A stretch of 64,000 nt of DNA from Ruminococcus sp. (lineage in GTDB: Bacteria; Bacillota; Clostridia; Oscillospirales; Ruminococcaceae): assembly GCA_017470905.1 (NCBI GenBank), contig JAFUXL010000013.1, positions 47,214-111,213 of the forward strand, written 5' to 3'. This document shows, one piece after another, positions 20,989-50,726 of this stretch. Numbering within the stretch: the first letter of the stretch is position 1; every line of letters starts with the position of its first letter. The notes below the pieces were generated by a model. That model had not been told where the DNA came from. It searched no databases and saw nothing but the letters and a program-made list of their open reading frames with translations. The translations under genes were made by a program, and so were the position numbers.

Positions 20989-21690
20989 ATGTCGTTTTTA
21001 AAATTAGAAAATGCGGTAAAGAAGTACGGAGACGGCGAAAGTGCCGTTTATGCGCTGAACGGTGTGTCAATTGATATTGAACCGGAGGAAATAGTCGTAA
21101 TTTTAGGTTCGTCGGGTTCGGGTAAAAGTACCCTGCTCAACATTCTGGGCGGTATTGATGTTATGTCAGAGGGCAGATTTACATTTATGGATAAGGAAAT
21201 CAGCGGTAAAAAATCCAGAGATTTACTGCTGTACCGCAGAGAAAATATAGGATTTGTATTTCAGTTCTATAATCTTATTGCAGACCTCACCGTAAGGGAA
21301 AATATCAAGGTAGTGGCTGAATATTGCAGCAGTCCGCTGAATATTGATGAGGTCATGAAAACTCTCGGAATAGACAGCCTTGCAGACCGTTTTCCTAGTC
21401 AGCTGTCAGGCGGTCAGCAGCAAAGAGTTGCCATTGCAAGAGCCGTCATTAAAAATCCCAAGCTTCTGCTCTGCGACGAGCTGACAGGTGCGCTTGATTC
21501 AAAAAGTTCGGGTGATGTTCTCAGATTTGTCGAAAAAATAAACCATGAGTACAATACAACCATCATAATAATCACACACAATAATGAGATTGCCAGAATG
21601 GGAGACAGGATAATAAGAATACATGACGGAAAGATAGTATCAAATGAGAAAAACCAAGAAAAGGTCAGCGCAGATAAGCTTGAACTTTGA
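20989..21690 (+). CDS. ABC transporter ATP-binding protein, LolD/MacB type (exporter 1)
   Basis: The 233-residue ATPase has Walker A GSSGSGKST, Q-loop FVFQFYN, signature LSGGQQQRVAIA and Walker B LLLCDELTGALD followed by ITHNNE. The LDSKSS segment after Walker B is typical of the LolD/MacB/BceA branch that works with FtsX-type permeases. It opens the biosynthetic operon, has GGGAGG before its ATG and is followed after 25 bp by its permease. In Gram-positives such pairs export peptides or confer self-resistance; here the cluster product is the likely cargo. Confidence 0.9.
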   Translation: MSFLKLENAVKKYGDGESAVYALNGVSIDIEPEEIVVILGSSGSGKSTLLNILGGIDVMSEGRFTFMDKEISGKKSRDLLLYRRENIGFVFQFYNLIADLTVRENIKVVAEYCSSPLNIDEVMKTLGIDSLADRFPSQLSGGQQQRVAIARAVIKNPKLLLCDELTGALDSKSSGDVLRFVEKINHEYNTTIIIITHNNEIARMGDRIIRIHDGKIVSNEKNQEKVSADKLEL

Positions 21691-21715
21691 TTTTAAGGAA
21701 GAATGAGGATTTGAA

Positions 21716-23950
21716 ATGCTTACTTTAAATAAAAGATATTTGAGAAGTGTGAAAAAGAATTTTTCTTTCTATCTGCTTTCCGCACTTCTTACAGCTGTGG
21801 CGATATGCCTGTTTTTGTGCTTTCATGCCGGAGTAAACGGTGAAAAGGCGTATATTGATGAATTCAGAGATACGTCATTCGTGGAGGACGGAGAATTTAC
21901 TCTTCCTGTTTCGCTTACCGATGATGATATTTCCGATATGGAGAACGACAATGATGTTATTATTGAAAAGAACAGATTTGTCAATTATGAAGGAGAAAAA
22001 TATAATATCAGATGCTTCACAAAAACGGAAAAGGTAAATATTTATCGTGTTATTGAGGGAAATGATGCGGTAAATAATGATGAAGTCCTTCTCAGCATAA
22101 ATTTTGCAAGAGCAAATTCCATAAATATCTCTGATAAGATAACTTTATTTGACAAGGAATTTACCGTTACAGGATTTGTCGAAAGACCTGATTATCTTTT
22201 TATGCTCGAAAATCTTGCGGACAGTTATCATAATGATGCCGATTTTGGTATTTCGGTGATGTCGGACGAGGCATTTGAGTCGCTTGATGTTCCGTATTCG
22301 GAATACTACTCTGTGATATATCCCGAGAATGTCAATGTGAACGATTTCAGAAAAAATCTGTATGACGATTACGGAACGCTTACCTATACTCCGGCCGATA
22401 TAAACCGCCGTGTCACAATGCCGCCGAACCTCTGTGAACAGCTCGGAATGTATGCAAATATGATACTTCCCGTCATAATGCTGATAGTCATTATTCTGAC
22501 GGCTGTCGTGCTTAAAAGACATCTGCTGAACGATTCAAAGCAGATAGGCGTGCTTCTTGCGTTGGGTATCAAAAAATCCCAGATATTCCGTCATTATATG
22601 GTTTTCGCCCTTATACCTGCGATTTTCGGAAGTGTATTCGGAATAGTCATATCGCTGTTTGTAAAGGATTCTGTTGCATCCGTATGCTTTTTTAAGCTGG
22701 AAAGTCTCCCTGTAGAGTACAATTTCAATCTTTCCGACCTTCTTGTTTCGCTGCTGCTTCCTGCACTTCTGTACTGTGGATTTGCACTGTTCCAGACAGT
22801 AAAGATAACCCGAAAAAATGTTACCGCACTTCTCAGAAACAGGACAGACTCCGAACGAAATAACAGAAAGGCTTCGTCTTCCGTAAAAACTCCCGTAAGG
22901 CGCAAATTTATCTTCCGCACAATATTCAGGCATTTTTCCAGAACGCTTGCATTTGCGGCAGGTGTCATAATAAGCGGCATTGTGATGGTATATGCGCTCT
23001 ATGTCATAGATTCCTGCACTCATTACCGTGACCACGCTGTCGGGATAGTCGGAGATTTTGATTACGAGTATTTCCTCAGCAATTTTACCGATGATGAACT
23101 TCCAGATAATGCAAGCGGTTCGGTCGGACTTATTTTTGAAGTGGAGGGGGCTTCCGGTACACTTAATGTAATAGGCACAGAGGATAATAAATATCTTAAT
23201 TTCAAGGACGAGTACGGAAATGACGCAGACCTTGACGACGGAAAGTATTATCTGAGCAAAATGGCTTCATTGCAGTACGGTGTAGGCGAGGGAGAAAAAC
23301 TCAGCTTTTATCAGTCGGCTTCGATGAAGGAATACGAAGTAACCATAGACAGGATAATTGACAATGATGTGCAGTGCGTGCTGTATTCCTCAAAGGAAAA
23401 TATATGTGATATGTTTGATATACCGGACGGACTTTATAACGTTGTTATGAGCCGTGAAAAGATAAGCTATGATGAGGACGAGGTTTCTTCAACTGTTACA
23501 AAGACCTCTCTCAGAGACCAGATACAGAGTGTTATAGACGGTATTATCCCCACAATGACAAGCACGGTCGTTATAGGCTGTATTATTTGTATAATTGTTA
23601 TTTATCTTATGGTAAATATGCTGGTTCAGGAAAATTCGGGAATGATATCAATGCTCAAAATACTCGGCATGAAAAACAGGGAAATTAACAAAATGGTTCT
23701 CAATGTTTACTTTTATATCCTGATTATTTCCTCTGTTCTCGGACTTTATCTGGGATATTTGTTCTCTGATTTCTATTTCAAGGCAAATGTTGAAAGTTTC
23801 CAGTGCTATATAAGCGCGTGGATTTCTCCTGTCAGTATTGTTATTTATTTTGGCTGTATTCTTGTAAGCTACTTTATTTCCATGCTTCTGCTCAGAAGAA
23901 AGGTAGACAAGGTTGATACAGGCGAAAGCCTGAAATATAATCAGGACTGA
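21716..23950 (+). CDS. FtsX-type ABC permease (exporter 1)
   Basis: The 744-residue membrane protein has an N-terminal helix (~19-39) and a ~200-residue external domain. A first FtsX block of three helices (~250-360) is followed by a linker, another helix (~405), a second external domain and a final three-helix FtsX block (~615-735). This double-FtsX layout is that of MacB/LolC-like or AttF-like exporters in Firmicutes. It pairs with the upstream ATPase. The operon's second FtsX permease (34569-36911) shows no obvious close similarity by eye. Confidence 0.85.
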   Translation: MLTLNKRYLRSVKKNFSFYLLSALLTAVAICLFLCFHAGVNGEKAYIDEFRDTSFVEDGEFTLPVSLTDDDISDMENDNDVIIEKNRFVNYEGEKYNIRCFTKTEKVNIYRVIEGNDAVNNDEVLLSINFARANSINISDKITLFDKEFTVTGFVERPDYLFMLENLADSYHNDADFGISVMSDEAFESLDVPYSEYYSVIYPENVNVNDFRKNLYDDYGTLTYTPADINRRVTMPPNLCEQLGMYANMILPVIMLIVIILTAVVLKRHLLNDSKQIGVLLALGIKKSQIFRHYMVFALIPAIFGSVFGIVISLFVKDSVASVCFFKLESLPVEYNFNLSDLLVSLLLPALLYCGFALFQTVKITRKNVTALLRNRTDSERNNRKASSSVKTPVRRKFIFRTIFRHFSRTLAFAAGVIISGIVMVYALYVIDSCTHYRDHAVGIVGDFDYEYFLSNFTDDELPDNASGSVGLIFEVEGASGTLNVIGTEDNKYLNFKDEYGNDADLDDGKYYLSKMASLQYGVGEGEKLSFYQSASMKEYEVTIDRIIDNDVQCVLYSSKENICDMFDIPDGLYNVVMSREKISYDEDEVSSTVTKTSLRDQIQSVIDGIIPTMTSTVVIGCIICIIVIYLMVNMLVQENSGMISMLKILGMKNREINKMVLNVYFYILIISSVLGLYLGYLFSDFYFKANVESFQCYISAWISPVSIVIYFGCILVSYFISMLLLRRKVDKVDTGESLKYNQD

Positions 23951-24017
23951 TATAAACGCCCTTACCTAAGCTTGTGTGAAGGGCATTTATGCGGACGCTG
24001 CTAAAGGAGGCGGAATA

Positions 24018-25241
24018 ATGACTTATACTGACAAGATTTATGAGGTCGGCGAACGTCCTCCGCTTGGAATAATTCCACGGAAGATGTATGCATGGACAAT
24101 AAGGAACGAAAGACTTGGTTCGCCTGAAACAGCATTCAGGGTGGAGCTTGTTGATGTACCGGAAATACGTGATGACGAAATGCTTGTATATAATATGAGT
24201 GCAGGTATCAATTACAACGGTATATGGGCAGCCAGGGGGATTCCAAAAAACGTTGTTGACAGCAACGGAGATTATTTTGACGAAAAGCAGGATTTTCATA
24301 TTTGCGGTTCGGAGTCCTCGGGTATCGTGTATGCCGTCGGGAAAAATGTCAGGAATTATAAAGTCGGAGATGCGATATGTGCCGGCGGTTCAAAATACTC
24401 TCCCGATGACAGTGATGTTATTGCAGGAATGGACCCGTGTTTCAGTCCTTCGTATCATATATGGGGATATGAAGGAAATTACGGCGCATTTGCACAGTTT
24501 TCAAGGGTTCAGGAATGTCAGTGTGTAAGAATAGCCGATAATCTTAACTATGATGAAGCAGCAGCGGCATATGCCACAGGAGTTACTGCGTACCGTATGC
24601 TCACTCGCTGGGAGGGCAATACCCTGAAAAAGGGCGATGTTGTACTTATATGGGGAGGCGCAGGCGGTCTGGGGCTGTCCGCCGTACAGATAACGGCGGC
24701 AATGGGCGGAATACCTGTTGCAGTAGTCTCATCCGATTCAAAAGGCGAGCTTTGTAAAAAAATGGGGGCGGCAGGATATATAAACCGAACCAAATTCAGT
24801 CACTGGGGAAATATAAACGGTCTTTCGGCAAGAGAATATCGCAGCTGGATGGCTCAGGCTGCCAAATTCAGAAGAACCATATGGAATATCGTAGGTGAAA
24901 AAAAATCTCCTGCAATAGTGCTGGAGCATCCCGGAAGAGATACGCTTCCTACCTCCCTGTTTGTATGTGATAACGGTGGAATGGTAGTACTCTGCGGTGC
25001 TACCTCCTCATACAATGCCGATATAGACCTGCGCTTCCTCTGGCTGAACCAGAGGAGAATACAGGGTTCGCACGCAGGTACGCAGAAAGATGCGGAGGAA
25101 TACATAGAACTTATAGAAAAGCATGATATTCATCCGTATATCGGCAAAATATATAACTGGTCAGAACTGCCGAAGGCACATATGGAGCTTGAAAATAATA
25201 TTTATAACGGAAAGTTAGTTATCAGAATAGGAGCAGAATAA
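24018..25241 (+). CDS. crotonyl-CoA carboxylase/reductase family enzyme
   Basis: The 407-residue medium-chain reductase closely follows the CCR family along its length: INYNGIWAA, ICGSESSGIV, DPCFSPSYHIWGYEGNYG, VLIWGGAGGLGLSAVQ (NADPH loop), GYINR, FRRTIWNIVGEKKSP, VLEHPGRDTLP and QGSHAGTQ. Residues known to hold CO2 in characterised CCRs appear conserved: Asn in NYN, Glu in WGYE, His in GSH. CCRs reductively carboxylate an enoyl-CoA to an alkylmalonyl-CoA, a branched polyketide extender. The gene lies directly before the KS-AT-MT-ACP gene, so it probably supplies that AT. ATG 24018 has AAAGGAGG seven bases upstream. A plain trans-acting enoyl reductase is the alternative. Confidence 0.85.
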   Translation: MTYTDKIYEVGERPPLGIIPRKMYAWTIRNERLGSPETAFRVELVDVPEIRDDEMLVYNMSAGINYNGIWAARGIPKNVVDSNGDYFDEKQDFHICGSESSGIVYAVGKNVRNYKVGDAICAGGSKYSPDDSDVIAGMDPCFSPSYHIWGYEGNYGAFAQFSRVQECQCVRIADNLNYDEAAAAYATGVTAYRMLTRWEGNTLKKGDVVLIWGGAGGLGLSAVQITAAMGGIPVAVVSSDSKGELCKKMGAAGYINRTKFSHWGNINGLSAREYRSWMAQAAKFRRTIWNIVGEKKSPAIVLEHPGRDTLPTSLFVCDNGGMVVLCGATSSYNADIDLRFLWLNQRRIQGSHAGTQKDAEEYIELIEKHDIHPYIGKIYNWSELPKAHMELENNIYNGKLVIRIGAE

Positions 25242-25247
25242 TAATTT

Positions 25248-28200
25248 ATGCATAATGATTACGATATAAAAGATACCGATGTTGCTGTTATAGGTTATGC
25301 GTGCCGTTTCCCAGAGAGCAGCTCTCCCGACAGGTTCTGGCAAAATCTTAAAGCCGGAAGAGACTGTATAACAAGGACTGAAAGCAAAGACCGAAGAAAA
25401 ACATATGCTTTCGGTGTTGCAGATGATATTTATGGGTTTGAGCCTGAGAGGTTCGGTATCAGTGAGATGTCAGCAAAGCTCATGGATCCCAATCAGAGGC
25501 TCATGTTCAAGCTTTGCGCCGAGGCTCTGGAAACAGGCGGCTATTCGGAACGCAGAAAGAATGTCCGTATAGGTCTTTTCTGCTCGCTGTATGAGTTTAT
25601 CTATGTATGGAAGGGGTATCTCGAAATCTCCGATGATAACGCAGAAGAGCAGACTTTAAGAAGAACATTTCTTGATGGCTCGGCAGCTTCGAGAATAGCT
25701 TATCATATGAACCTTACAGGACCTTGTATACCGATAAAGGCTTCCTGTGCAAGCTCGCTCTATGCGGTGCATGAGGCAGTAAATGCGCTTATCAACAACG
25801 AATGTGATATTGCCGTTGCAGGAGGAGTAAATCTGCTTGAAAACCAGGAATATTATGTCAATGCCGAGAATACACTTTCCCTTAGCGGATATACAAGACC
25901 TTTCAGCAAGGATGCAGACGGATTTGTTCCGGGCTGCGGAGGGGGAGCGGTTTTGCTGAAGCCCTTGTCTGACAGCGTTGATGATAATGATTATATTCAT
26001 GCGGTTATAAAGGGTTCTGCAATAAATAATGACGGCACGGAAAAAGCAAGCTATGCCGCTCCGTGTGTAAAAGGCGAAAGCAGAGCAATATCAGATGCTC
26101 TTTATCTTGCGGAAACAGAACCTGATGATATTGACTATATCGAAGCGCACGGCACAGGTACGCAGCTTGGCGATGCAATTGAAATAGCTGCTCTGAACAA
26201 GATATTCGGTCAGAGAAAGCATACTCCTCTGTATATCGGTTCAGTCAAATCAAATATAGGTCATCTGAATTATGCGGCAGGAATTGCAGGGTTTATAAAA
26301 ACTGTTATGATGCTTGAACATAATACAATCGTTCCCTCCCTCTACAGCGATAATGTCAATCCTGAGCTTAATCTTGACTCATACGGTTATAAACTGGCAG
26401 ATGAATGTATAAAGCCTGAAAGACCTCTGAATTATGCCGGAGTAAGTGCCTTTGGAGTTGGCGGAAACAATTGCCATATAGTTCTTTCGTCCTATCCCAC
26501 GGCACTTTGCGGTACAAAAGACGAAAAAACAGGATATGAAATAGTTATTTCGTCTGCCCACAGGGAAAATATCCGTAAAGATTGCATGGAGCTTGCGAAA
26601 TATCTCGAAAACCACAGGAGTGTACCGCTCAGGGACGTTGCCTATACCATTTCCGCAAGAGGTGCGATGAAAAAATATCGTGCGGCATTCGGAGCCAAAA
26701 GTATTGACAGCTTTATAAAAATGCTTAATCAGCCGTTTATTACGGCTGATTCCGGGAAATTGCCGTCTGCACGGAAAAGTGTATGGCTTTTTCCGGGGAG
26801 CAATGTATTCAGTGCAGAGGATGTTTGTTCGATATATAATATCAATGCGGAAATCAGGGAGCTTTTTGATGACACATTAAATACCGTCAGGAATGTGTGC
26901 GGCTGTGATTTGACAGGGAAGATAGCAGACAGAGAAGCTGTGTATGACCCTCTTGAAGCCTCAATGCTGACATTATCTGTACAGTGTGTTATCGGGGAGC
27001 TTCTGAAAAAGAACGGTGTCGGCTGCGATGCAGTGCTTGGCTACAGCGCAGGCGAGTACACAGCGGCATATTTTTCCGGTGTAATATCAAAGACCGAGCT
27101 TATACGTCTTTATTATCTGAGAAACCGGCTTCTTGAAAGACTGCCCGAGGGAAAAATGGCGAGTATCTTAGGCAAACCAGAAGAATTTGAACTGCCGGAA
27201 GGGGTCTATATCTCTGCAAGAAACACTCCCAGCCGCTTCATGATAACAGGTCTTGCGGAGGATATTGACCGATATATCGCCGAACTTGACGAAAAGCAGG
27301 TATTTTATTCGCTCCTTCCGCTGAACCGTGCAGGACATTGCAGGATAGTTGACGGGATATTAACGGATTTCAGAGCAATTCTTGAAACGACAGAGTTCAG
27401 AAAGCCTGTTGTCGCATACATATCTTCCGCATATGGCAGGATAGTCAGTGATGAACTTATGTCTCCTGATTACTGGATAAATCAGTTAAGGAGCGAAGTA
27501 AATTACTGCAAGGCGGCGGAAGAACTTGACAAGATAGGAAATATGGTTTCCTTAGAGATTGGAATTGGCGGACAGCTTTCGTATTTTGCTAAAAAATCCG
27601 TAAAAAAACGTTCTGGCAAGCTGTTCCTTAGCATGATAAGCGAAGACATCACAAATAAGGGGGAAGCCCTGATAACAGGTCTTGCAGCACTTACCGCATA
27701 CGGCTTGAAACAGCCCTCATTGCATGACGGCAGAATTATATATCTTCCTCCTTCGTCATTCAAAGAAAAGATATATAATGAGTATGCAGAACAGAAAAAA
27801 GCTGCACAGACTGAATGGAAAAAGCATCTTGTGCTTGACGGCTGTTCGGATAAAATGGGCGAGCTTTTGTCATTCCTGCGCAGCAGGGGCATTGCGGAGA
27901 TACTGCAATATGTGCCCTGTGATACAGGCTGGGGCAGTACCGAAGAACTTTACAGCGCATTCTCTGAAATTGAAACTGAAATGCTGAAAAATTCGGGTAT
28001 AAAGTGTATAAAAGAAAACCGCAGGCTTGAAAAGGCTCTTGATATGCTCTGTTTTGCGGCATCTGCCGAGTATTTCCGCAGATACGGAGTATTTTCCGTA
28101 GCAGGTGAAAGCTGTACATGGCAGGAACTTAAACAGAGGCTGAATGTTATTGATGAGTACTGTCCCTTTGTCATGCTCATGCTTTCGTACCTCAGCGGCG

Positions 28201-29519
28201 GGGGATATATATGCTTTGAGACGGTAAGTCATGCACAGGACCTTGATAATGCCGATGAGATACGTTGTATTAAAAGCATTGCAGATTGCAGAGGTCTTAC
28301 GGATACTCTTTCGGCAGCGACAGAGAGTGACAGAAATTATGCTCCGTTCTTTGAATTTTATGCAGATGCGGCGGTACACTATCCCGAAGTGCTTGAGGGT
28401 AAAACAGCAGGAAAAGAGCTGCTCTATCCCAACGGTTCATATAATAAGCTGTTTGATGTTTACGGGAAGATACCGGAAATGAACAAGGTAAGGCTTTATT
28501 CATCTGTTTTTGCCAAAATTCTGGAAAAGCTTGCTTCCGAAAGCAAAAGACCGCTGAAAATACTGGAAATAGGAGCAGGAACGGGGCTTGTGACATGGAA
28601 TGCAGCAAAGGTTATTGAAAAATACGGCGGTGATTACTGGTTCACCGATATAGGAGTTTCATTCATTGAAAAGGCTAAGGCTGCCGCAAAGGAATACGGA
28701 TATGAATTTATGGAGTTCTGTAAGGCGGACATTACCGAGGATTTGCGTGAACAGGGTATTCCCGATAATTATTTTGATATTATAATTTCCTGCAATGTTA
28801 TTCAGGCTACAGGAAATATGAGAAAATCTCTCGGCAACTGCTTCAGGACACTTAAAAAAGACGGCTTCTGCGTGCTTTTACAGACTGTTGACGGTCATCA
28901 TATAAGTGAAATGCTGTACGGACTTACTCCTGAGTGGTGGAATTACTATCATGACCCGCTAAGAAAATACAGTCCCATAATAAGCAGAGAGAATTTCCGC
29001 AGGATACTTGAGGAGAACGATTTCCGAAATATTCGTTTCTTCGAAGGAAACCAGGAGCTTCTTACCGATACCGCACTTATATTTGCACAGAAGAAAAATG
29101 ATAATATACAGGAATATCCGGACGATATAATTAAAATAGACGGATATGAAAACAGATATGTTTCCGAATATATCAACAAGAACGGCACAGACTGCGAGAC
29201 GGTTATGCCGGAGGGCTGGAAAAAACGTTATCCGTCGGAGCAGAAATCGGATGACGAAAATGCAGAATGCCGCAGCGTAACAGAAAAACGAATTTGCAGT
29301 ATAATAGAGCATATAACAGGAATAAGAATTGACAGCATCAATTCTTCAATTTATTCATATGATATTGATTCGCTCTGCGGACTTATGATATGCTCGCAGA
29401 TAAAAAACGAATTTAATATAGAATACTCAATAAAGGATTTGCTTGGCTGTACAACAGTAAAGGGAATAGCCGATACCGTTGACGGTCGGCTCAGAGAAAA
29501 AATTTTTTCGGCAGAATAA
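25248..29519 (+). CDS. polyketide synthase module KS-AT-cMT-ACP
   Basis: The 1423-residue type I module has a ketosynthase (1-~425) with triad Cys167 (KASCASSLY), His301 (EAHGTGT) and His339 (NIGHLNYAAG). The acyltransferase (~510-800) has Ser600 in GYSAGE and His697 in RAGH; the usual GQG is GSN. The C-methyltransferase (~870-1290) has the SAM motif LEIGAGTG near 1105. The acyl carrier (~1345-1415) has the phosphopantetheine Ser near 1374 (YDIDSL). No ketoreductase, dehydratase or thioesterase is present. The order resembles the PKS part of yersiniabactin HMWP1 minus KR. It would extend the aminoacyl chain by one malonyl or alkylmalonyl unit and C-methylate it, leaving a beta-keto function. 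The start has AGGAG at 14 bp, a long spacing. Confidence 0.9.
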   Translation: MHNDYDIKDTDVAVIGYACRFPESSSPDRFWQNLKAGRDCITRTESKDRRKTYAFGVADDIYGFEPERFGISEMSAKLMDPNQRLMFKLCAEALETGGYSERRKNVRIGLFCSLYEFIYVWKGYLEISDDNAEEQTLRRTFLDGSAASRIAYHMNLTGPCIPIKASCASSLYAVHEAVNALINNECDIAVAGGVNLLENQEYYVNAENTLSLSGYTRPFSKDADGFVPGCGGGAVLLKPLSDSVDDNDYIHAVIKGSAINNDGTEKASYAAPCVKGESRAISDALYLAETEPDDIDYIEAHGTGTQLGDAIEIAALNKIFGQRKHTPLYIGSVKSNIGHLNYAAGIAGFIKTVMMLEHNTIVPSLYSDNVNPELNLDSYGYKLADECIKPERPLNYAGVSAFGVGGNNCHIVLSSYPTALCGTKDEKTGYEIVISSAHRENIRKDCMELAKYLENHRSVPLRDVAYTISARGAMKKYRAAFGAKSIDSFIKMLNQPFITADSGKLPSARKSVWLFPGSNVFSAEDVCSIYNINAEIRELFDDTLNTVRNVCGCDLTGKIADREAVYDPLEASMLTLSVQCVIGELLKKNGVGCDAVLGYSAGEYTAAYFSGVISKTELIRLYYLRNRLLERLPEGKMASILGKPEEFELPEGVYISARNTPSRFMITGLAEDIDRYIAELDEKQVFYSLLPLNRAGHCRIVDGILTDFRAILETTEFRKPVVAYISSAYGRIVSDELMSPDYWINQLRSEVNYCKAAEELDKIGNMVSLEIGIGGQLSYFAKKSVKKRSGKLFLSMISEDITNKGEALITGLAALTAYGLKQPSLHDGRIIYLPPSSFKEKIYNEYAEQKKAAQTEWKKHLVLDGCSDKMGELLSFLRSRGIAEILQYVPCDTGWGSTEELYSAFSEIETEMLKNSGIKCIKENRRLEKALDMLCFAASAEYFRRYGVFSVAGESCTWQELKQRLNVIDEYCPFVMLMLSYLSGGGYICFETVSHAQDLDNADEIRCIKSIADCRGLTDTLSAATESDRNYAPFFEFYADAAVHYPEVLEGKTAGKELLYPNGSYNKLFDVYGKIPEMNKVRLYSSVFAKILEKLASESKRPLKILEIGAGTGLVTWNAAKVIEKYGGDYWFTDIGVSFIEKAKAAAKEYGYEFMEFCKADITEDLREQGIPDNYFDIIISCNVIQATGNMRKSLGNCFRTLKKDGFCVLLQTVDGHHISEMLYGLTPEWWNYYHDPLRKYSPIISRENFRRILEENDFRNIRFFEGNQELLTDTALIFAQKKNDNIQEYPDDIIKIDGYENRYVSEYINKNGTDCETVMPEGWKKRYPSEQKSDDENAECRSVTEKRICSIIEHITGIRIDSINSSIYSYDIDSLCGLMICSQIKNEFNIEYSIKDLLGCTTVKGIADTVDGRLREKIFSAE

Positions 29520-29533
29520 TGAGGAGGAAGAAA

Positions 29534-30689: not shown

Positions 30690-30707
30690 TTTTGAAAGGA
30701 CAAGGAC

Positions 30708-32582: not shown

Positions 32583-32608
32583 GCATATTTTTATAGGAGA
32601 AGATATAA

Positions 32609-33793: not shown

Positions 33794-33811
33794 TTTTGAG
33801 GGTGAGTGCAG

Positions 33812-34567: not shown

Positions 34568-34568
34568 T

Positions 34569-36911: not shown

Positions 36912-36920
36912 GGGAGGAAA

Positions 36921-39963: not shown

Positions 39964-39964
39964 C

Positions 39965-42232: not shown

Positions 42233-42235
42233 AGT

Positions 42236-45200
42236 ATGGACACAAGAGAAATTGTATTCGGTGCAATAGAAAAGGTTCTCGGCAGCAGAGAGGGAATATC
42301 TGACGAAACCAATCTGATACGGTTCGGATTAAGCTCGTTACAGGTTATGAAAACAGCAGGTCTTATGAGAAAAAACGGTATAAAGGTGAGCTTTGCCGAC
42401 CTTATGGAATATAAAACTCCTGCCGAGTGGATTGCACTTGCGGAGAGCAGAGTAGACGTCAATACCAAAAAGTCGGAGAATACGGAGCAGAAAACCGAAA
42501 ATAAAGCGTTTCCGCTTACTGATGTACAGTATTCATATTGGGTCGGCAGAGAGAAAGACCAGCCTATGGGCGGAGTTGATTGTCATGCCTACTATGAATT
42601 TGAGGGCAACAATGTTGATGCCGCAAGGCTTGAGGAGGCATGGAATACAGTCATTTCGGCTCACCCTATGCTTCATACGGGATTTACAAGTGACGGCAGG
42701 CAGCAGACTATGGAGCAGGCTTTTCGGAACAGCTTTTCCCTTATTGATATATCGGGACTGAGCGAAAGGGAACAGGAAGAAAAACTGCTCGATATACGCC
42801 GTGAGATGTCACACAGGCGTTTTAACCTTGAAGCAGGTGAAACTGCCGGAATGAAGCATTGCATACTGAGCGGAGGAAAAAGTGTTTCGTTTATAGATTT
42901 TGCCCTTATAGTGTGCGATGTGCAGAGTATAAAGATAATACTGCGTGACATTGCAGAGTATTATACAAAGAAAAAAATGCCCGATGCTGACAGAAAATGG
43001 AGCTTCGGCTCATATATTGAAATGCTCCGCAGGGAACGTGCCGATGAAGAAAGAAAAGCTGCTGAATACTGGAAAAAGCGTGTTGGTGAATTATCTCTCG
43101 CCCCCGACCTTCCTTTGAAGAAAAAGCCCGAAAGCGTGACCTCTCCGAAATATACTCACCATACGGATACTCTTTCCGAAAAGCAGTGGACAGCAATCAG
43201 AAAAAGAGCTGCCGAGGCAAATGTCACTCCTGCTATGGTTCTGCTTACAGCTTATTCGCAGACCGTACACCGCTGGAGTGCGAATGACAGTTTTCTTATA
43301 AACGTTCCGCTTTTCGACCGCTGTGATGATTTCGGTGACGTAAGCAATGTTGTGGCAGATTTTACCACACTCCTCCTTTCCGAACAGGACTACAGCGAAA
43401 AGCGTACATTTATTGAAAATATCAGAAAGGTGAGTGCCGATTTTATACGTGACATGAAATATGCAGCCTATAACGGCGTACAGGTACAGAGGGAGCTTCA
43501 GGGTATTTATCCCGGACAAAGGGACTTTGCACCTGTGGTATTTGCCTGCAACATCGGAATGGACTTTATAAATGATGATTTTGCCGAGAATATAGGCAAT
43601 ATAAGGTATATGGTATCTCAGACACCGCAGGTCTGGATAGATTGTCAGGTATTTGAACGCAGCGGAGAGCTTTCACTTGTATGGGATACGGCAGATGAAC
43701 TGTTTCCTGAGAATATGACAGATGATATGTTTTCATCATTCATGCAGTATCTGCGCCGCCTTTCGGACGAAGCCTATGACTGGAACAGCTTCTGTTCTCC
43801 TGATATTTCGTCGGGATATGTAAGGAAAACCATTGAAGAGCTTGAAAACGAGCCTGCTCACTGCACTCTGCTTACTGACGGACTTATTAAGTATGCAGCG
43901 GAAACTCCGGATAATACTGCACTTTATCTCTGCGAAACAGGTGAAAGAGTGACCTATGCCGAGCTTTATAAATACGGCAGACGTATTGCAGCTTCATTGC
44001 AGGAACACGGTTTCAGAAAGGGACAGCTTGCCGCAGTCGTGATGGAGCGTGGCATTTCGCAGATAACTGCCATATACGGCATACTTCTTGCAGGCGGCTG
44101 CTATGTGCCGCTGAGCGGCGGACAGCCAGACATGAGACTTGAAAAAATATTCAGTTCACTGAATATCGGTTATGCGGTGACGGACAGCGAAAATGCACAA
44201 AAATGGAACGGTATAAAATGCATAATATATGAAGATGCCGAAAACAGCACGGCTGAATATATTCCTGCGGATATTTCTCCCGATGACAGCGCATATATAA
44301 TAATGACCTCCGGTTCTACAGGTACTCCCAAAGGGGTTGAGATAAGACACGGCAGCGCAATGAATACGATATATGACATCAATAAAAGAATATCGGCTTC
44401 AGCAGACTCTAAAATCCTAGGAGTATCCGCAACGGATTTCGACCTTTCGGTATATGATATTTTTGGTATGTCATCAGTCGGGGGAGAGCTTTGCATACTT
44501 ACACGTCAGAATGCCAAGGATGCCGATTTCTGGGTGGATGTTATAAAAGAAAATAATATAGATGCATGGAACAGTGTGCCTGTATTGTTTGATATGCTGC
44601 TGACCTCCGCTGAAAGACGGGGCGTATCTCTTCCGATAAGGACGGTTATGCTTTCGGGAGACTGGATAGGCATACCGCTGGTAAAAAGATATAACAAAAT
44701 ACTTCCCGACAGTGTGATGCTTGCTATGGGCGGAGCAACAGAGGCATCTATATGGTCAAATGTATTCATGGTTCCCAAAGAATTACCTGACCATTGGAAG
44801 AGTATTCCGTACGGAAATGCGCTAACTGCACAGATGTACCGCATAACCGACCGCCTTGGAAGGGATTGCCCCGACTGGACAACAGGAGAGCTTCTCATAG
44901 GCGGAGCAGGTGTTGCAAAGGGTTATTACGGAGATGCGGAGCTTACAAAAAATAAGTTCAGCGAGGAAAACGGTCTTATATGGTATCATACGGGAGATAA
45001 CGGAAGATTTTGGTCTGACGGTACTATTGAATTTCTCGGAAGAAAGGATTTTCAGGTAAAGGTCAGCGGTCATCGTATAGAACTTGGCGAGATAGAGTCC
45101 GCCGCCGAACAATGCGAGGGCATAAACAGAGCCGCCGCCGCAGTTTATGAAAAGAACGGCATAAAGAAAATAGCATTGTTCTATACTTCGGAGCAGGGAG

Positions 45201-45610
45201 CAGATACAGACGAGAAAAAACTGCTCTCACTGCTTGAAAAGCGCATTCCAGGATATATGCTGCCAAAAACATTTATTCGCCTTGAAAGCTTCTCTGTAAC
45301 AGCTAACGGAAAGCTTGACAGAAAAAATCTGGTTGTGACAGATTATGAAAAAAACGAAACGGCTGTACCCGAAAATTTCACTGAAACAGAGAAAAAACTC
45401 AGCAGAATATGGGAGAATAATCTCAATACCGCCATCCGTGACCGCTCTGACGATTATTTTGAGACAGGCGGCAATTCTCTTAAAGCAACAGGCATGGTAT
45501 ATGAAATAAACGAAGAGTTCGGAATAAAGTTCAAAATATCAATGATATTCAGATATTCTTCCCTCCGTGATATGGCTGCGCAGATAGACAGGCTGTGCAT
45601 GGAGGGTTAA
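42236..45610 (+). CDS. NRPS ArCP-Cy-A(Cys-like)-PCP
   Basis: The 1124-residue protein has an N-terminal carrier (1-75, Ser34 in FGLSSLQ), a heterocyclization domain (~90-520), an adenylation domain (~545-1030) and a PCP (~1045-1120, Ser1081 in TGGNSL). The order equals that at the start of yersiniabactin HMWP2. The A-domain pocket reads D-L-Y-N-M-S-M-I-W-K, two Leu-to-Met changes from the textbook Cys code DLYNLSLIWK, so cysteine is predicted. The Cy active motif D-x4-D-x2-S reads A223-x4-D228-x2-S231, lacking the first Asp. It would couple the aryl acid to Cys and, if Cy is competent, close a thiazoline. GAAAGGA precedes the ATG. Confidence 0.9.
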   Translation: MDTREIVFGAIEKVLGSREGISDETNLIRFGLSSLQVMKTAGLMRKNGIKVSFADLMEYKTPAEWIALAESRVDVNTKKSENTEQKTENKAFPLTDVQYSYWVGREKDQPMGGVDCHAYYEFEGNNVDAARLEEAWNTVISAHPMLHTGFTSDGRQQTMEQAFRNSFSLIDISGLSEREQEEKLLDIRREMSHRRFNLEAGETAGMKHCILSGGKSVSFIDFALIVCDVQSIKIILRDIAEYYTKKKMPDADRKWSFGSYIEMLRRERADEERKAAEYWKKRVGELSLAPDLPLKKKPESVTSPKYTHHTDTLSEKQWTAIRKRAAEANVTPAMVLLTAYSQTVHRWSANDSFLINVPLFDRCDDFGDVSNVVADFTTLLLSEQDYSEKRTFIENIRKVSADFIRDMKYAAYNGVQVQRELQGIYPGQRDFAPVVFACNIGMDFINDDFAENIGNIRYMVSQTPQVWIDCQVFERSGELSLVWDTADELFPENMTDDMFSSFMQYLRRLSDEAYDWNSFCSPDISSGYVRKTIEELENEPAHCTLLTDGLIKYAAETPDNTALYLCETGERVTYAELYKYGRRIAASLQEHGFRKGQLAAVVMERGISQITAIYGILLAGGCYVPLSGGQPDMRLEKIFSSLNIGYAVTDSENAQKWNGIKCIIYEDAENSTAEYIPADISPDDSAYIIMTSGSTGTPKGVEIRHGSAMNTIYDINKRISASADSKILGVSATDFDLSVYDIFGMSSVGGELCILTRQNAKDADFWVDVIKENNIDAWNSVPVLFDMLLTSAERRGVSLPIRTVMLSGDWIGIPLVKRYNKILPDSVMLAMGGATEASIWSNVFMVPKELPDHWKSIPYGNALTAQMYRITDRLGRDCPDWTTGELLIGGAGVAKGYYGDAELTKNKFSEENGLIWYHTGDNGRFWSDGTIEFLGRKDFQVKVSGHRIELGEIESAAEQCEGINRAAAAVYEKNGIKKIALFYTSEQGADTDEKKLLSLLEKRIPGYMLPKTFIRLESFSVTANGKLDRKNLVVTDYEKNETAVPENFTETEKKLSRIWENNLNTAIRDRSDDYFETGGNSLKATGMVYEINEEFGIKFKISMIFRYSSLRDMAAQIDRLCMEG

Positions 45611-45613
45611 GGC

Positions 45614-46399
45614 TTGACAATGAACGGATACGAAAAATGGCTCTTTCAGCATAAGGAAAAATCAGGTGCCGCCATAAGGCTGATATGCTTTCATTATGCC
45701 GCAGGAAATGCAGCATGGTTTTCACCGTGGGAAAGATACTGCGGAAACGATATTGAGCTTTGTGCTGTACAGCTTCCCCAGAGAAGCGAACGAATATCAG
45801 AAAAAATGCCTGATACCATAGAAGAACTTGCAGAGCAGTTCGTCAGTGACAGCATGGAGCTTTTTGACAGACCGTTTGTAATATTCGGACACAGCATGGG
45901 GGCTATGGTAGCTTATGAAACTGCATTCAGACTGAAAGAAAAATACGGAATATCGCCTGAGCTTCTTGTACTTTCAGCCTGCGGTGCGCCTCTGTATCCC
46001 GAGATACAGTTTACAGGACGCAGTATTCTGAATGCAGATGATGATGATATAAAAGATATACTTGACGACTATGGTCAGACAGATGAAGAGCTGCTTGGTT
46101 CGCAGGAATTTTGCGAATACTATTTTCCTATAGTGAGAAGTGATTTTCATGTCTGCGAGATATACTGCAAAAAGCCTGTATCTGCTCTTGATTGCAGTAT
46201 ATCCGTACTCCGTGGAAACCGTGACGAAAGGGTAACGGCGGAGGAGGCCGCCCTATGGGGCAGATATACAAGTGCAGACTGTACGGTCAGGAATTTTACG
46301 GGAGGTCATTTCTTTCCGCAGGAGCATATTCATGAAATAATTGAAATCATACGTTCTAAAATAAATAATTCAGAGGTGAAGTATTTTGGACAGCAATAA
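45614..46399 (+). CDS. type II thioesterase (GrsT/RifR-like)
   Basis: The 261-residue alpha/beta hydrolase has IRLICFHYAAGNAAWFSPW at the N-terminus, nucleophile Ser in FGHSMGAM, Asp in LRGNRDERVT and His in GGHFFPQEH. These are the hallmarks of external thioesterases that clear mis-primed or stalled carrier domains; release of the product is also possible, since no integral thioesterase exists in the operon. The start is TTG 45614 with GGAGGG seven bases upstream, or ATG 45620 with AAGG. It overlaps the following NRPS gene by 14 bases. Confidence 0.9.
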   Translation: MTMNGYEKWLFQHKEKSGAAIRLICFHYAAGNAAWFSPWERYCGNDIELCAVQLPQRSERISEKMPDTIEELAEQFVSDSMELFDRPFVIFGHSMGAMVAYETAFRLKEKYGISPELLVLSACGAPLYPEIQFTGRSILNADDDDIKDILDDYGQTDEELLGSQEFCEYYFPIVRSDFHVCEIYCKKPVSALDCSISVLRGNRDERVTAEEAALWGRYTSADCTVRNFTGGHFFPQEHIHEIIEIIRSKINNSEVKYFGQQ

Positions 46400-49300
46400 T
46401 GAAAGACGTTTTCCGCTTGCGGATATGCAGATGACGTATCTCATCGGCAGACTTGACGGTCTTGAAATGGGAGGCAATTCAATAAGGGCATATTCGGAAC
46501 TGCGGTGCAGCGGTTACGAGCATGACAGATTTGTAAAAGCAGCAGATATGCTGGTTAAGAGCAATGAAATGCTCAGATGTGCGATATATCAGGACGGAAC
46601 ACAGGAGATACTTGATTGTTCTTTAAGGGATATTCCCTTTAATAAACTCGATATTACAGAAAGCGAGGCTGAGGGATATATTGAAAAAAGACGGTCTGAA
46701 ATATTTGATATGCAGTTTGACCTTGAAAAGCCTCCTCTTATATATTTTGAAGTGACAGGCTTTTCTGACGGGAATGCCGTTATACATCTTTATCATGACT
46801 GTATAGTTGTAGATGGCTGGAGTCATGAGATGATTATACGTGAGCTTGATGAATTTTACTGCGGCAGGAGGACAGAGCCGCTGAAGCTCGGTTATACCTA
46901 CAGGCAGTATGTACAGGATATGAACGAGAAGAAGAAAAGCCGCAGGTATAAGGAATGCAGGGATTTCTGGCTTGAGCAGACAGCATCGTTTCCCGGTTCG
47001 CCCGACCTGCGCTCAAGAAACCGGGCTGAAACCAATACCGAAACTTTTATGCAGGTTACAAGAAGCATTTCAAAAGATGAGTACGAGATGATTAAAAAGA
47101 ACTCGTTTTCAAGGCATCTTTCCCCGTTTGCGGTGTTACTGACCGCATACGGAAAATCAATATCAAAGTACAGCAGTGAACACCCTTTTCTGCTTAATAT
47201 CCCTATGTCAGCCCGTAACCCGAAAATCCCCGATATGCAGTATACCATAGGAGAATATTCCGACTTCCTCATATATGACTGGACGGAGGAACGCAGCGAG
47301 TCCTTTATGGACTGTGTATACCGTGTGCAGGAGAGACTTTTTGAGCTTATTGAAAACCGTGATTTTTCAGGAATAGAAGTGGTTCAGGAAATGCAGAAAC
47401 AGCGTGAGGGTGCGCTTATCGCTCCTGTCGTTTTCACAAGTACGCTTGATATTCCGTATAAAAAATCCGAAAAGCTTGAAAAGATTTACAGTAAAACGCA
47501 TACAAGTCAGGTATGGCTTGACTCAATAGTCATGTATACCCAGGATGCTGTATTGCTTACAATGGACTATGTTGAGGAGAAAACAGGCACAGACACCATA
47601 AACCAGGTCGCCGACTCGTTTATAAGCCTCATAAAGCAATTCGCAGCAGAGCCGGAAAGCTGGAATGATATTTATTGTATCCCTCTTACTGATGATGAAA
47701 AGGCATTGTCGGAGCAGAATTTCGTTCCCGCAGAGATAAACGACAACTTTGGCGCACTTATGCGTAATTCATTCGTGAAACATCGTGACAAGCCTGCCGT
47801 GATAAGCAATGCGGCTGTTATTACATATCGTCAGGTTCAGAATTTTGCAGGAGTATTATATGAAAGAATAACAGAGCTGTGCGGAACGGAACGCCCTCTA
47901 CGGATAGGTCTGCTGCTTGAAAAAGGATGGAAACAGACGGCATCAGAGGCTGCCTGCCTTATAACGAATATGACATTTGTTCCGGTTGAGAAGGAAAACA
48001 GCGACACAATGCTTCTTAAAATGTTTGAAAATCTGGATATATCATGTCTTGTAACGGAACATGAATATGCGGACAAATGGCGTGAGACGGCAGAATTTCC
48101 AGTTATAGACGTATCCGGAATATCATATGACAAGGATTTCGGTTCAGAGATATTCATTGCTGAAAACCGCTGCGATGAATGCTATTGCATACACAGCTCA
48201 GGAACTACAGGTCAGCCCAAAGCAATAATGCTGAACGAAAAGGGTCTTGTGAACTGTATTTTGCAGACAAATAAGGAATTTAACATAAATGAGAATGACA
48301 GGTGTATTGCAGTAACGAATTTTTGTCACGATATGTCTGTATATGATACCGCAGGAATACTTATTGCCGGAGGTACGGTGGTTATCCCCGAGGGGAGGGA
48401 AGAAGAGAAAAATCCCGAAGTATGGCTGGAGCTTATAAAAAAGCATAAGGTTACAGTCTGGAACGGAAGCCCTTCGGTCATGGAAATGCTTATGACTGAA
48501 AAACAAGGGCTTTCAGCTGTAAAGGGACAGTTTAAGGTTGTCATGCTGGGCGGTGAAGTATTTACTCCGTCTCTTGCAAGGCAGATAAGGGATATTTTAA
48601 ATCCGTCTTATCTTTACAATGTCGGAGGCCCTGCCGAGGCTACTCTCTGGAGTATATGGCATCGTGTGACAGATGAGGATATGCAGGGGGATATGATACC
48701 CTACGGTCATGCTCTGAACGGCTTGAAATACAGGGTTCTGGACGAGCTGCATCACAATTGTCCGCCGGGAACAGAGGGAATAATGTACATAAGCGGCGCA
48801 GGACTTGCGGTCGGCTATCACAATTTGCCGGATATGACCGCAGAGCGTTTTGTTACAATAGACAATGAACGCTGGTATGATACGGGCGATATAGGCTGGT
48901 ATATGCAGGACGGAGAAATTGCCTTCGGCGGAAGAAAGGATTTGCAGGTTGAAATAAACGGAAAGCGTGTGGAGCTTGAGGGAATAGCCGCTGTTCTTAT
49001 GGAACAGGGCGATATTACGAGATGTGTGGCAGTCCTTTCAGGAAGGAGCAGGCTTCTCACGGCATTTTACAGCTCTGAAAAGGATATACCGTCAGGGATA
49101 CTTGAAAAATTTGCAGATGAAAATCTTCCGCAGTATATGCGTCCGGCACATTATGTCCGTCTTGATGCATTCCCGATTACACCGAACGGAAAGACCGACC
49201 TCAAAAAGCTGAGGGAATACGAATGCAAGGATACAGGCTCTGTAAAAGCTGTTACAGAAACCGAAATAAAGCTTCGTAATATATGCAGAAGTGTTATCAG

Positions 49301-50726
49301 TGAGAATTTTATTCTTGAAAAGAGCCTTTATCAGAACGGCGGAAATTCAATAAGCGTTATCAAACTTGCCAACAGAATACGGACAGAATTCGGAGTTAAA
49401 ACCACTGTCGCAGAGCTTTTGAAATCGCCGTATTTCAGCGAATGGACAAAACTGATTGATGCAGGTGCTTCAGAAGAAATACATAACGGCAGGACAGACA
49501 ATCAGGCGAATTGCTATCCGCTTTCGCCCGAACAGCAGGATATGTGGATATATGACAATATACACAGGAACACCAGATATGTAATATCCGCAAAGCTTGA
49601 AATCAAGGAAGAAATTGATGCCGCAAAACTTAACTGCGCAATAAAGTCCGTACTGACGGAAGAGCCTGTACTCAGGGCAGTTTTCAGAATGAACGGCGGC
49701 GGAAAGCTTGAACAGATAATACAGCCCGACACGGCTGATGAATGCTTGCAGGTGATGAAGCCTGGAAACAGGGAGACAGCTGAGTTTATAATAAATTCTC
49801 TCGCAGATATGCCCATGGAGCTTGACAAGGGTCCGCTTTACAGGTTTATGCTTTTTGACTGCGCTGACGGATACAGGGTATTTATGATGACACTTCATCA
49901 TATAATTTCTGATGAACAATCATTCGGAATAGTGTACAGAAAAATACTTGACAAATATTATAACCAAGAACGTGCGCAGACGGGAAGTGCAGACTTTTTC
50001 AGCTATATAAGCGACAGTATCAGCAAAAAAGACAATATCTGCCCCGAATGGGAGCTTCTTAAGGATGCCGAAGCCGCCGAGAATATATATATGCCGGAAG
50101 AACTGAAAACAGACAGGTCACTCCTTGAAAGGGATTTTGTATTTGATGAAGCCGCCTACAATAATCTGCGCAGGATATGTGCAGAGGAAAATGTTTCGTT
50201 TTTCTCCGGACTGCTTGTGCTTTTTACGGAGCTTATCAGTGAAATAAGCGAACAGGAATATATATGGGTATCTGTTCCTTCATCTGACCGTGCAAGCGGA
50301 GCGTATGAAGATACCGTCGGTATGTTTGTAAAGAAACTTATAGTCAGAATGCCCGCAAATATGGGAAATTTCCGTGAAGCACTGCATACGGCACAGAAAG
50401 CTTTGCTTGAAGCGGCTTCACAGTCAGGCAGCTCATTCAGGGATTTCGTGCGCCGTAATAATCTTTCACAAAAACTGAATGCCATATATTCGGATATGGT
50501 GCTTAATCTTATTGACTCAGGCGACAACAGCGGATACGGAGCGTTTGACTATGTGAGAAACAAGGCGGAAAGCAATGCCACAAAATTACAGCTTATGGCA
50601 GATATAAATGAAAACGCACGCATTTACCGATTTTACTACGATAAAGAGTTTTTCGGAGATGATGAAATGACGTTTATAACCGAAACATGGCAGAAAATAC
50701 TCCGCAATACGGAAAATATGTTTTAA
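46386..50726 (+). CDS. NRPS Cy-A-PCP-C
   Basis: The 1446-residue protein has a heterocyclization domain (1-~440) with an intact motif D138-x4-D143-x2-S146, and an A domain (~455-935) with SSGTTGQPKA, FCHDMSVYD, GGPAEA, YDTGDIG and Lys in TPNGKTD. The PCP has Ser988 in NGGNSIS, and a C-terminal condensation domain (~1040-1446) has HHIISDE at 1171-1177 (His-His and Asp kept, Gly replaced by Glu). The A pocket reads D-M-Y-N-M-G-V-L-W-K, Cys-like but not canonical. A terminal C domain with nothing after it implies transfer to a separate carrier, probably the freestanding A-PCP, or chain release. The start is TTG with AGAGGTGA upstream. Confidence 0.9.
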   Translation: MDSNNERRFPLADMQMTYLIGRLDGLEMGGNSIRAYSELRCSGYEHDRFVKAADMLVKSNEMLRCAIYQDGTQEILDCSLRDIPFNKLDITESEAEGYIEKRRSEIFDMQFDLEKPPLIYFEVTGFSDGNAVIHLYHDCIVVDGWSHEMIIRELDEFYCGRRTEPLKLGYTYRQYVQDMNEKKKSRRYKECRDFWLEQTASFPGSPDLRSRNRAETNTETFMQVTRSISKDEYEMIKKNSFSRHLSPFAVLLTAYGKSISKYSSEHPFLLNIPMSARNPKIPDMQYTIGEYSDFLIYDWTEERSESFMDCVYRVQERLFELIENRDFSGIEVVQEMQKQREGALIAPVVFTSTLDIPYKKSEKLEKIYSKTHTSQVWLDSIVMYTQDAVLLTMDYVEEKTGTDTINQVADSFISLIKQFAAEPESWNDIYCIPLTDDEKALSEQNFVPAEINDNFGALMRNSFVKHRDKPAVISNAAVITYRQVQNFAGVLYERITELCGTERPLRIGLLLEKGWKQTASEAACLITNMTFVPVEKENSDTMLLKMFENLDISCLVTEHEYADKWRETAEFPVIDVSGISYDKDFGSEIFIAENRCDECYCIHSSGTTGQPKAIMLNEKGLVNCILQTNKEFNINENDRCIAVTNFCHDMSVYDTAGILIAGGTVVIPEGREEEKNPEVWLELIKKHKVTVWNGSPSVMEMLMTEKQGLSAVKGQFKVVMLGGEVFTPSLARQIRDILNPSYLYNVGGPAEATLWSIWHRVTDEDMQGDMIPYGHALNGLKYRVLDELHHNCPPGTEGIMYISGAGLAVGYHNLPDMTAERFVTIDNERWYDTGDIGWYMQDGEIAFGGRKDLQVEINGKRVELEGIAAVLMEQGDITRCVAVLSGRSRLLTAFYSSEKDIPSGILEKFADENLPQYMRPAHYVRLDAFPITPNGKTDLKKLREYECKDTGSVKAVTETEIKLRNICRSVISENFILEKSLYQNGGNSISVIKLANRIRTEFGVKTTVAELLKSPYFSEWTKLIDAGASEEIHNGRTDNQANCYPLSPEQQDMWIYDNIHRNTRYVISAKLEIKEEIDAAKLNCAIKSVLTEEPVLRAVFRMNGGGKLEQIIQPDTADECLQVMKPGNRETAEFIINSLADMPMELDKGPLYRFMLFDCADGYRVFMMTLHHIISDEQSFGIVYRKILDKYYNQERAQTGSADFFSYISDSISKKDNICPEWELLKDAEAAENIYMPEELKTDRSLLERDFVFDEAAYNNLRRICAEENVSFFSGLLVLFTELISEISEQEYIWVSVPSSDRASGAYEDTVGMFVKKLIVRMPANMGNFREALHTAQKALLEAASQSGSSFRDFVRRNNLSQKLNAIYSDMVLNLIDSGDNSGYGAFDYVRNKAESNATKLQLMADINENARIYRFYYDKEFFGDDEMTFITETWQKILRNTENMF

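Follow-up and report, generated by a model that had tools for sequence, protein, structure and literature searches.

What would be made, and under what control, by a nonribosomal peptide synthetase-polyketide synthase (NRPS-PKS) operon in a Ruminococcus sp.? The operon lies in a 64,000-nucleotide stretch of GCA_017470905.1 (contig JAFUXL010000013.1, positions 47,214 to 111,213), referred to here as the window, on contig C10 of a 2.04 Mb assembly of 32 contigs that is 74% complete. Seventeen plus-strand open reading frames (ORFs), g01 to g17, occupy window positions 20989-50726, and all are open. We consider it probable that they form an iron-repressed operon that makes and exports an aryl-capped, cysteine-heterocycle-containing and polyketide-extended siderophore.

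ORF calling agreed with the initial annotation on 17 co-directional genes, but not on the gaps of 0-67 bp given there: the spacings, measured between first-start ORFs, are -17 to +26 bp. Pfam and NCBIfam scans, with matches taken at E 0.001, recovered its parts list of NRPS and PKS modules, aryl-AMP ligase, thioesterase, 4'-phosphopantetheinyl transferase (PPTase) and two exporters, as well as the additional crotonyl-CoA carboxylase/reductase (CCR), leucine-rich-repeat (LRR) and FrhB proteins. The absences it had pointed out were also seen, since ketoreductase, NRPS methyltransferase and integral thioesterase had no match among the 17 genes at that threshold; g08 and g11 matched no family. The whole recovered assembly contains only three condensation-type domains, all belonging to the operon.

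The proposed link to iron comes from exact genome-wide matches to an operator pattern and from the genes beside them, not from counts in the window, where 6 sites with one mismatch allowed do not exceed the shuffle mean of 7.15. The pattern, RTTAGN6CTAAY, was broadened from the narrower TTAGYTTAARCTAA. Three exact copies and one single-mismatch copy are found upstream of g01, and a fourth exact copy precedes a CitMHS-type gene. Boxes are present 5' of the operon in all four genomes that carry it; in three of the four, one box starts 7-8 bp past the -10 hexamer, and in L138 the boxes are located elsewhere. GTTAGATGCTTCTAAC occurs in the g01 promoter of a relative. The printed operator of EqbA, from the Streptococcus equi equibactin system, contains GTTAGATGTATCTAAC, and EqbA binding requires that palindrome and responds to Fe2+ and Zn2+ and, to a lesser extent, to Mn2+ (PMC3672683). 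The operon boxes match the 16-base core of this operator only, not its 36-bp palindrome.

Exact sites outnumber matches to the backward-read pattern in the window's own genome (9 versus 3) and in G299 (19 versus 6). Four of the nine own sites are at the operon, and the other five lie by FTR1 (two), flavodoxin/YhfC, a 2Fe-2S protein and DUF3793. The four genomes together hold 47 sites. Nine lie at the operon; another 30 were inspected in 20 stretches of the own genome and its relatives, and a simple ORF caller placed 25 of these between genes. In 8 of the 20 stretches, Pfam assignment of 30 nearby proteins identified a classic gene of iron handling, metal import or iron sparing next to the box (Table 1). 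These iron-starvation-type operators are new evidence for the metallophore-like product proposed in the initial annotation. They also bear on the alternative of a metallophore that serves zinc, copper or manganese and is governed, through the box, by a repressor sensing several metals, which we regard as improbable: one box of a relative (L176) is at a ZIP-type gene and EqbA binding answers Fe2+, Zn2+ and Mn2+ (PMC3672683), but iron and iron-sparing functions (FTR1, FeoB, ferric-reductase-like, flavodoxin and NrdI-like) account for most of the named metal-linked neighbors. DUF3793, which recurs near boxes in three genomes and once adjoins a flavodoxin, is likely an iron-regulon protein family.

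The box extends beyond the operon. A clostridial set of 28 loci with g15-like NRPSs, assigned by record title and totaling 622 kb, contains 31 boxes in 18 loci, which are partly non-independent (the L063 and L098 sites are near-identical), whereas each of five control patterns gave 1-5. Of the 31 boxes, 28 lie between genes. In 50 loci from other phyla, of which many belong to high-G+C groups, 3 boxes occur in 1.15 Mb, with 0-2 for the controls. In G117, of another genus in the same family, three boxes lie at and beyond the start of an aryl-AMP ligase ORF, one overlapping its first codons, and the same three precede a divergent run of thioesterase-like, ABC1-like (55%), FtsX (30%), PPTase and CCR (58%) ORFs. 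G117 provides a second instance of a CCR and the exporter linked to the box.

To place the operon among relatives, 297 family genomes were searched with a g15-like match threshold of E 1e-50. A match was present in 33 of them, counting the own genome; the strongest match outside it has 41% identity. Among these 33 and four genomes of the own genus (37 in all), the best g04 matches outside the own genome are partial (31-38%, G295), and g08 is confined to the own genome. A scan of 84,980 species, at one genome per species, used a single nine-residue pattern from the g15-family alignment, which misses homologs lacking the pattern; it returned 413 relatives, and the best 80 of the 413 were kept as 78 loci. 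The top three, at 62-70%, are all labeled Ruminococcus: RUG11845 (L050), R. flavefaciens SAb67 (L051) and R. flavefaciens NALB_7813_7 (L052). All three genomes keep the g01-g17 order, including the CCR, LRR, FrhB-like and dehydrogenase-like genes, although g13 was not found in L051 and g17 is split in L050 into two overlapping ORFs (16341-20713) by a frameshift or an assembly error. In the 75 other loci, g03, g06, g08, g11 and g12 had no ORF match (E 1e-8, half of the query covered, at most 10 kb each side). The operon is therefore not unique, and a gene order kept in three further genomes makes it more than a chance assembly of genes.

Regulator and importer genes are less constant. Short DtxR-type genes resembling the SH3-less EqbA are present in three relatives; neither DtxR-like nor importer genes were matched in the 17 genes or the scanned flanking genes. 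Trep_Strep, a candidate import component, is not a constant partner of the operon. The missing importer, in the operon and in the recovered genome, would fit an antibiotic or signal made under iron stress, with chelation incidental. So would the two ABC-FtsX transporters (g01/g02 and g09/g10), which match MacB- and darobactin-export-type models with scores under those models' cut-offs, and the antibacterial activity of some arylthiazoles of gut Bilophila (PMC11934131). We nevertheless think this unlikely, since the operators are common to FTR1, FeoB and flavodoxin genes, and Trep_Strep-like ORFs occur in 9 of the 28 clostridial loci, the query L060 included. Separately, L053 (6288-8431) and L060 (16812-19590) each carry, 3' of the synthetase genes, Trep_Strep (by Pfam in L060, a similar ORF in L053) and an ATP-binding cassette (ABC) ATPase ORF of 470-480 aa, a candidate energy-coupling-factor (ECF)-type siderophore importer. 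An ABC half-transporter pair in the window (14396-17772) was rejected as importer: it is 26-30% identical to the L162 and L167 pairs, which are 61-64% identical to each other, and no box precedes it.

The domains point to the kind of product. The nearest PDB match of g15 is PchE, a dihydroaeruginoic acid synthetase (E 3e-193), and covers ArCP-Cy-A; the ArCP is predicted from two PP-binding matches and a serine motif. The hand-read A-domain codes DLYNMSMIWK (g15) and DMYNMGVLWK (g17) are both close to DLYNLSLIWK, which we take to be the Cys code, and are thus Cys-like. The cysteine logic of the initial annotation is supported on both counts. The g17 Cy domain has the canonical DxxxxDxxS. The hand-read A code of g07, DGKAIALCCK, is identical in all four genomes; its Lys239 recalls what we assume to be the Glu code, and an acidic amino acid is possible as a guess.

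For the aryl cap, the best PDB matches of g14 are salicylate- and 2,3-dihydroxybenzoate (DHB)-AMP ligases. Its hand-read pocket differs from NYSAQGVVNK, presumably the DHB code, and from the variant with Cys239 and Ile330 that we take to indicate salicylate; Asn stands at 239 and 330 in all five ligases aligned. The Cys239/Ile330 rule for salicylate is stated in PMC3672683. Each of five genomes, the own 74% complete, has one chorismate-binding enzyme (PF00425), in open frames of 495-545 aa, and the own copy adjoins ORFs of TrpC- and TrpD-like size; frame and neighbor sizes suggest that this enzyme is TrpE. Salicylate and DHB are disfavored as caps, since the pocket is unlike either and each genome has a single such enzyme. 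Anthranilate or a plant-derived acid would instead be candidates, given the non-salicylate pocket and a single enzyme that appears to be TrpE.

The state of the first ring was considered from the genes beside g15. In L050 and L051, g15 and g16 are separated by one additional gene. This gene is of the nitroreductase family by Pfam in L050, L053 and L060 and by similarity (79%) in L051; it is missing between g15 and g16 in the window operon and in L052. Its relatives in L070 and L127, found by blastp, accompany a Cy domain with the usual Asp. On the bacillamide synthetase, thiazoline is oxidized to thiazole by BmdC, which belongs to the nitro-FMN reductase superfamily (PMC8795117). The comparison suggests that the four genomes of the same Cy clade with this gene would make an aryl-thiazole. 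For the aryl-thiazoline product proposed in the initial annotation, then, a salicylate-type cap is disfavored by ligase pocket and chorismate-enzyme count, and the first ring as a thiazoline is left open by the altered Cy motif of g15 and by these four genomes.

The polyketide part was examined through g03 and g04. Crotonyl-CoA reductases, including AntE, give the best PDB alignments of g03, which in all four genomes has Asn, Glu and His at the carboxylation positions, the residues we take to be typical there. The RAGH motif of the g04 AT is likewise present in all four genomes, and g04 retains the KS Cys-His-His, the cMT S-adenosylmethionine motif and the ACP Ser. Ethylmalonyl ATs generally have XAGH, where X is F, T, V or H (PMC7496768). 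RAGH together with a CCR would be supportive of ethylmalonyl use, without proving it. With the cMT, the CCR and the XAGH-like motif, the branched polyketide unit foreseen earlier is supported.

Among the accessory genes, g08 is conserved between its members (74-78% identity), and its best matches are leucine dehydrogenases (E 1.3e-4 with the single sequence, 2.6e-4 with the profile). Pfam ELFV_dehydrog is touched weakly by all four members (best E 0.0019, window member 0.13), and hand alignment indicates that the lysine of the GGGK motif is probably replaced by Arg in all four. No g08 relative was found in the viral sequences scanned.

Taken together, the siderophore pathway could run as follows. 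An EqbA-kind DtxR-family repressor with Fe(II) would bind the boxes past the -10 hexamer and block transcription until iron drops. g14 would adenylate an aryl acid, probably neither salicylate nor DHB, and load the g15 ArCP; the g15 Cy would couple it to Cys and close ring 1, and g17 would add a second Cys-type ring. The terminal C domain of g17 may pass the chain to an amino acid on g07. Ethylmalonyl-CoA from g03 would be added and C-methylated by g04, leaving a branched, probably quaternary carbon. g16 may serve release or proofreading, g13 would prime the carriers, g08 might either provide the amino acid for g07 or act on a C=N bond as a reductase, and g12 may be a reductase. Export would proceed through g01/g02 and g09/g10/g11.

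Several points weigh against this reading. The codes of the A and AT domains and of the aryl ligase were assigned by hand comparison with known ones, and both the substrate of g07 and the order of the modules are guesswork. Exact sites barely exceed the backward-read control in G297 (6 versus 5) and G298 (13 versus 8), so that for these two of the four genomes the argument rests on position. The recovered own genome has no DtxR-family gene, no importer was matched in the 17 operon genes, and Trep_Strep was found in one of four operon genomes searched, not the own. When L167A, a box-linked ABC half-transporter, was used to query the own genome, no close ortholog emerged (24-28%, one partial match at 41%). 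The own-genome absences weigh little, because a quarter of the genome is missing. The Arg of RAGH falls outside the X residues listed in PMC7496768.

The remaining points concern catalytic motifs. The g14 P-loop Gly is replaced by Asn, and the g15 Cy motif reads A-x4-D-x2-S, with Ala for the first Asp of DxxxxDxxS. That Cy also has PVVFA where the dyad Thr is usual; PchE, presumably a working synthetase although it too lacks this Thr, has the same sequence. In 79 Cy domains compared, the first motif residue is Asp in 70, Ala in 6 (the window, L050, L051, L052, L053 and L060) and Glu in 3. Of three known structures, two show a salt bridge between this Asp and a conserved Arg and the third does not (PMC9547227). 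A loss of ring formation through the Ala was not concluded, since four Ala genomes have the oxidase-like gene and PchE is also without the dyad Thr; ring formation by the g15 Cy is likely, not certain. These replacements, and the lack of the nitroreductase gene in contrast to L050 and L051, could also signify a decaying window copy with little or no product. This seems very improbable: all 17 ORFs are open, the Cy Ala is common to six genomes, L052 likewise lacks the nitroreductase gene, the P-loop Gly is also replaced (by Asp or Ala) in four aligned relatives, and the other motifs read intact.

Table 1. Operon genes, control sites and box-linked neighbors (window coordinates, or locus for genes of box-linked stretches)
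Feature	Location	Strand	Basis
g01 ABC transporter ATPase, probable exporter	20989..21690	+	Pfam; relatives' copies (n=3) 76-84% identical
g02 FtsX-type permease	21716..23950	+	Pfam
g03 CCR	23976..25241	+	TIGR01751, 455 bits vs cut-off 379
g04 PKS module KS-AT-cMT-ACP, AT motif RAGH	25248..29519	+	domain scan, motif reading
g05 free acyl carrier protein	29519..29776	+	domain scan
g06 BspA-type LRR protein	29760..30689	+	domain scan; kept in relatives
g07 free-standing A-PCP	30708..32582	+	domain scan; hand-read code
g08 diverged Leu-dehydrogenase-like protein	32609..33793	+	weak sequence/profile similarity, hand alignment
g09 second ABC transporter ATPase	33806..34567	+	domain scan
g10 second FtsX-type permease	34569..36911	+	domain scan
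g11 signal-peptide-like N-terminus, C-terminal hydrophobic segment	36921..37952	+	judged by eye
g12 ferredoxin + FrhB_FdhB_C protein, C-terminal half unmatched	37936..39963	+	domain scan
g13 PPTase	39956..40639	+	domain scan
g14 aryl-AMP ligase, pocket code NFNALGVNTK	40640..42232	+	domain scan; code hand-read
g15 ArCP-Cy-A(Cys-like)-PCP, PchE-like	42236..45610	+	domain scan, PDB match, motif reading
g16 free thioesterase, GHSMG	45614..46399	+	domain scan, motif reading
g17 Cy-A(Cys-like)-PCP-C	46386..50726	+	domain scan, hand-read code
Sigma-A-like operon promoter TTGACA-17-TACAAT	20729..20757	+	similar -35/-10 in all 4 genomes
Iron-box-like operator GTTAGATTGTACTAAT, begins 8 bp past -10	20766..20781		pattern scan
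Iron-box-like operator GTTAGTATTCGCTAAT	20912..20927		pattern scan
Iron-box-like operator GTTAGCTTTAACTAAT	20931..20946		pattern scan
Operator-like site, one mismatch	20622..20637		pattern scan
Iron-box-like operator 5' of CitMHS-type transporter gene	19161..19176		pattern scan
FTR1 by box	L163, L168		Pfam
FeoB by box	L174		Pfam
Ferric-reductase-like with Shr-like protein by box	L160		Pfam
Flavodoxin by box	L159, L165		Pfam
NrdI-like flavodoxin by box	L169		Pfam
ZIP by box	L176		Pfam
ABC half-transporters by box	L162, L167		Pfam
Trep_Strep by box	L177		Pfam
DUF3793 by box	L166, L174; L159 (next to flavodoxin)		Pfam
DUF6796 by box	L162, L172		Pfam
2Fe-2S thioredoxin-like by box	L164		Pfam
FMN_bind surface protein by box	L175		Pfam
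Unrelated or unknown genes by box	L161, L170, L171, L173, L178		Pfam

Around the operon, the CitMHS/sodium-sulfate-symporter-type gene (19161-20590, gene at 19280) has its own box and is possibly an iron-regulated ion or citrate carrier. Further upstream (14396-18912), the ABC half-transporter pair, non-orthologous to the box-linked pairs of relatives, is followed by a metallo-beta-lactamase-fold gene. A histidine kinase and response regulator (50858-52587, minus strand) converge with the operon end, and a 6-pyruvoyl-tetrahydropterin-synthase-type gene adjoins a radical SAM gene at 53205-54285. On the minus strand at 58259-63281, a further ABC-FtsX pair is followed by a GH5 cellulase with a type I dockerin; the GH5 and Dockerin_1 matches (61911-63281) bear out the dockerin-bearing organism of the initial annotation. 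In other genomes, L060 has class II tRNA-synthetase-domain, PAPS-reductase-domain, AMP-binding and thioesterase-like ORFs (2462-9370) beside, and on the opposite strand to, its arylthiazole-type cluster with boxes, and contig C14 of R. flavefaciens SAb67 (G298; 40000-125000) carries numerous additional KS matches in large frames, which belong to a giant PKS distinct from the operon.

A broader proposal is offered tentatively, at slightly less than even confidence: when iron is limiting, Ruminococcus-like gut bacteria that degrade cellulose and are strict anaerobes would produce a siderophore representing a new chemotype. Its cap would be neither salicylate nor DHB, it would have one or two cysteine rings formed partly by a Cy with an altered motif and an ethylmalonyl-derived, C-methylated quaternary carbon, and the EqbA-type iron box would be shared across a wide set of clostridial siderophore clusters. 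If so, in the anoxic gut, for which a supply of ferrous iron is often presumed, cellulose degraders would scavenge ferric iron with a dedicated molecule, raising questions about iron competition between fiber degraders. The shared box would offer a handle for predicting metallophores among many unassigned clostridial NRPS clusters; a rumen survey counted 5,346 NRPS clusters, all phyla together (PMC8241843). The CCR-PKS pairing, the odd Cy motif and the unusual ligase pocket are directly testable biochemistry. In the literature searched, where subscription journals are thinly covered, no title indicated a paper on a siderophore of R. flavefaciens or on an ethylmalonyl-containing (CCR) siderophore, and no title retrieved for DtxR regulons of Ruminococcus concerned the RTTAGN6CTAAY box.

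Compared with known systems, the operon resembles the pyochelin, yersiniabactin and equibactin kind, having all of aryl-AMP ligase, ArCP and Cy-A(Cys)-PCP, the Cys specificity hand-read, and lacks features that define yersiniabactin and equibactin proper. g15 is PchE-like over ArCP-Cy-A, including PVVFA, and g04 has a C-methylating PKS module as yersiniabactin (HMWP1/2) presumably does. The operon differs from both pyochelin and yersiniabactin in its CCR, ethylmalonyl-like AT, free A-PCP, and LRR, FrhB-like and dehydrogenase-like genes. The salicylate synthase or isochorismate route of yersiniabactin was not found, with one PF00425 enzyme per genome (n=5), and neither its thiazoline reductase nor its integral thioesterase had a match in the 17 genes at E 0.001. 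With the Streptococcus equi equibactin locus (eqbA-N) and the related one of Clostridium kluyveri, as described in PMC3672683, the operon shares the aryl-AMP ligase, ArCP, Cy, type II thioesterase and PPTase and, with equibactin, a control palindrome containing GTTAG-N6-CTAAC. Equibactin is described there with one A and three Cy domains and without the PKS part of HMWP1, whereas the operon has three NRPS A and two Cy domains, a PKS and a CCR; the equibactin ligase has Cys239 and predicted salicylate specificity (PMC3672683), whereas all five ligases aligned here have Asn239. Also part of the equibactin locus are genes for a thiazoline reductase, a dedicated DtxR-like protein and an importer (PMC3672683), none of which was matched in the operon; for thiazoline reductase, the 17 genes gave no match at E 0.001, g08 and g11 being without any match.

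Two further systems resemble the operon in single respects. Bacillamide is not known to carry an aryl cap. Its synthetase BmdB (PMC8795117) has the Cy-A-PCP module in common with the operon, and a gene of the type of its oxidase BmdC is absent from the window operon. The bil cluster of gut Bilophila, likened here by description, likewise comes from a gut bacterium and combines an aryl-AMP ligase with an NRPS-PKS to give arylthiazoles, the bilothiazoles; expressed in E. coli, it incorporated DHB and salicylate (PMC11934131). The initial annotation had set the operon against such metallophores of aerobic or facultative bacteria, a contrast that is too strong: comparable clusters have been published for C. 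kluyveri and C. difficile RT023 (PMC6814731) and for gut Bilophila (PMC11934131). Among these systems, the operon would be set apart by its CCR with an ethylmalonyl-like AT motif, the Ala of its first Cy domain, its odd ligase pocket and the single chorismate-binding enzyme of its genome.

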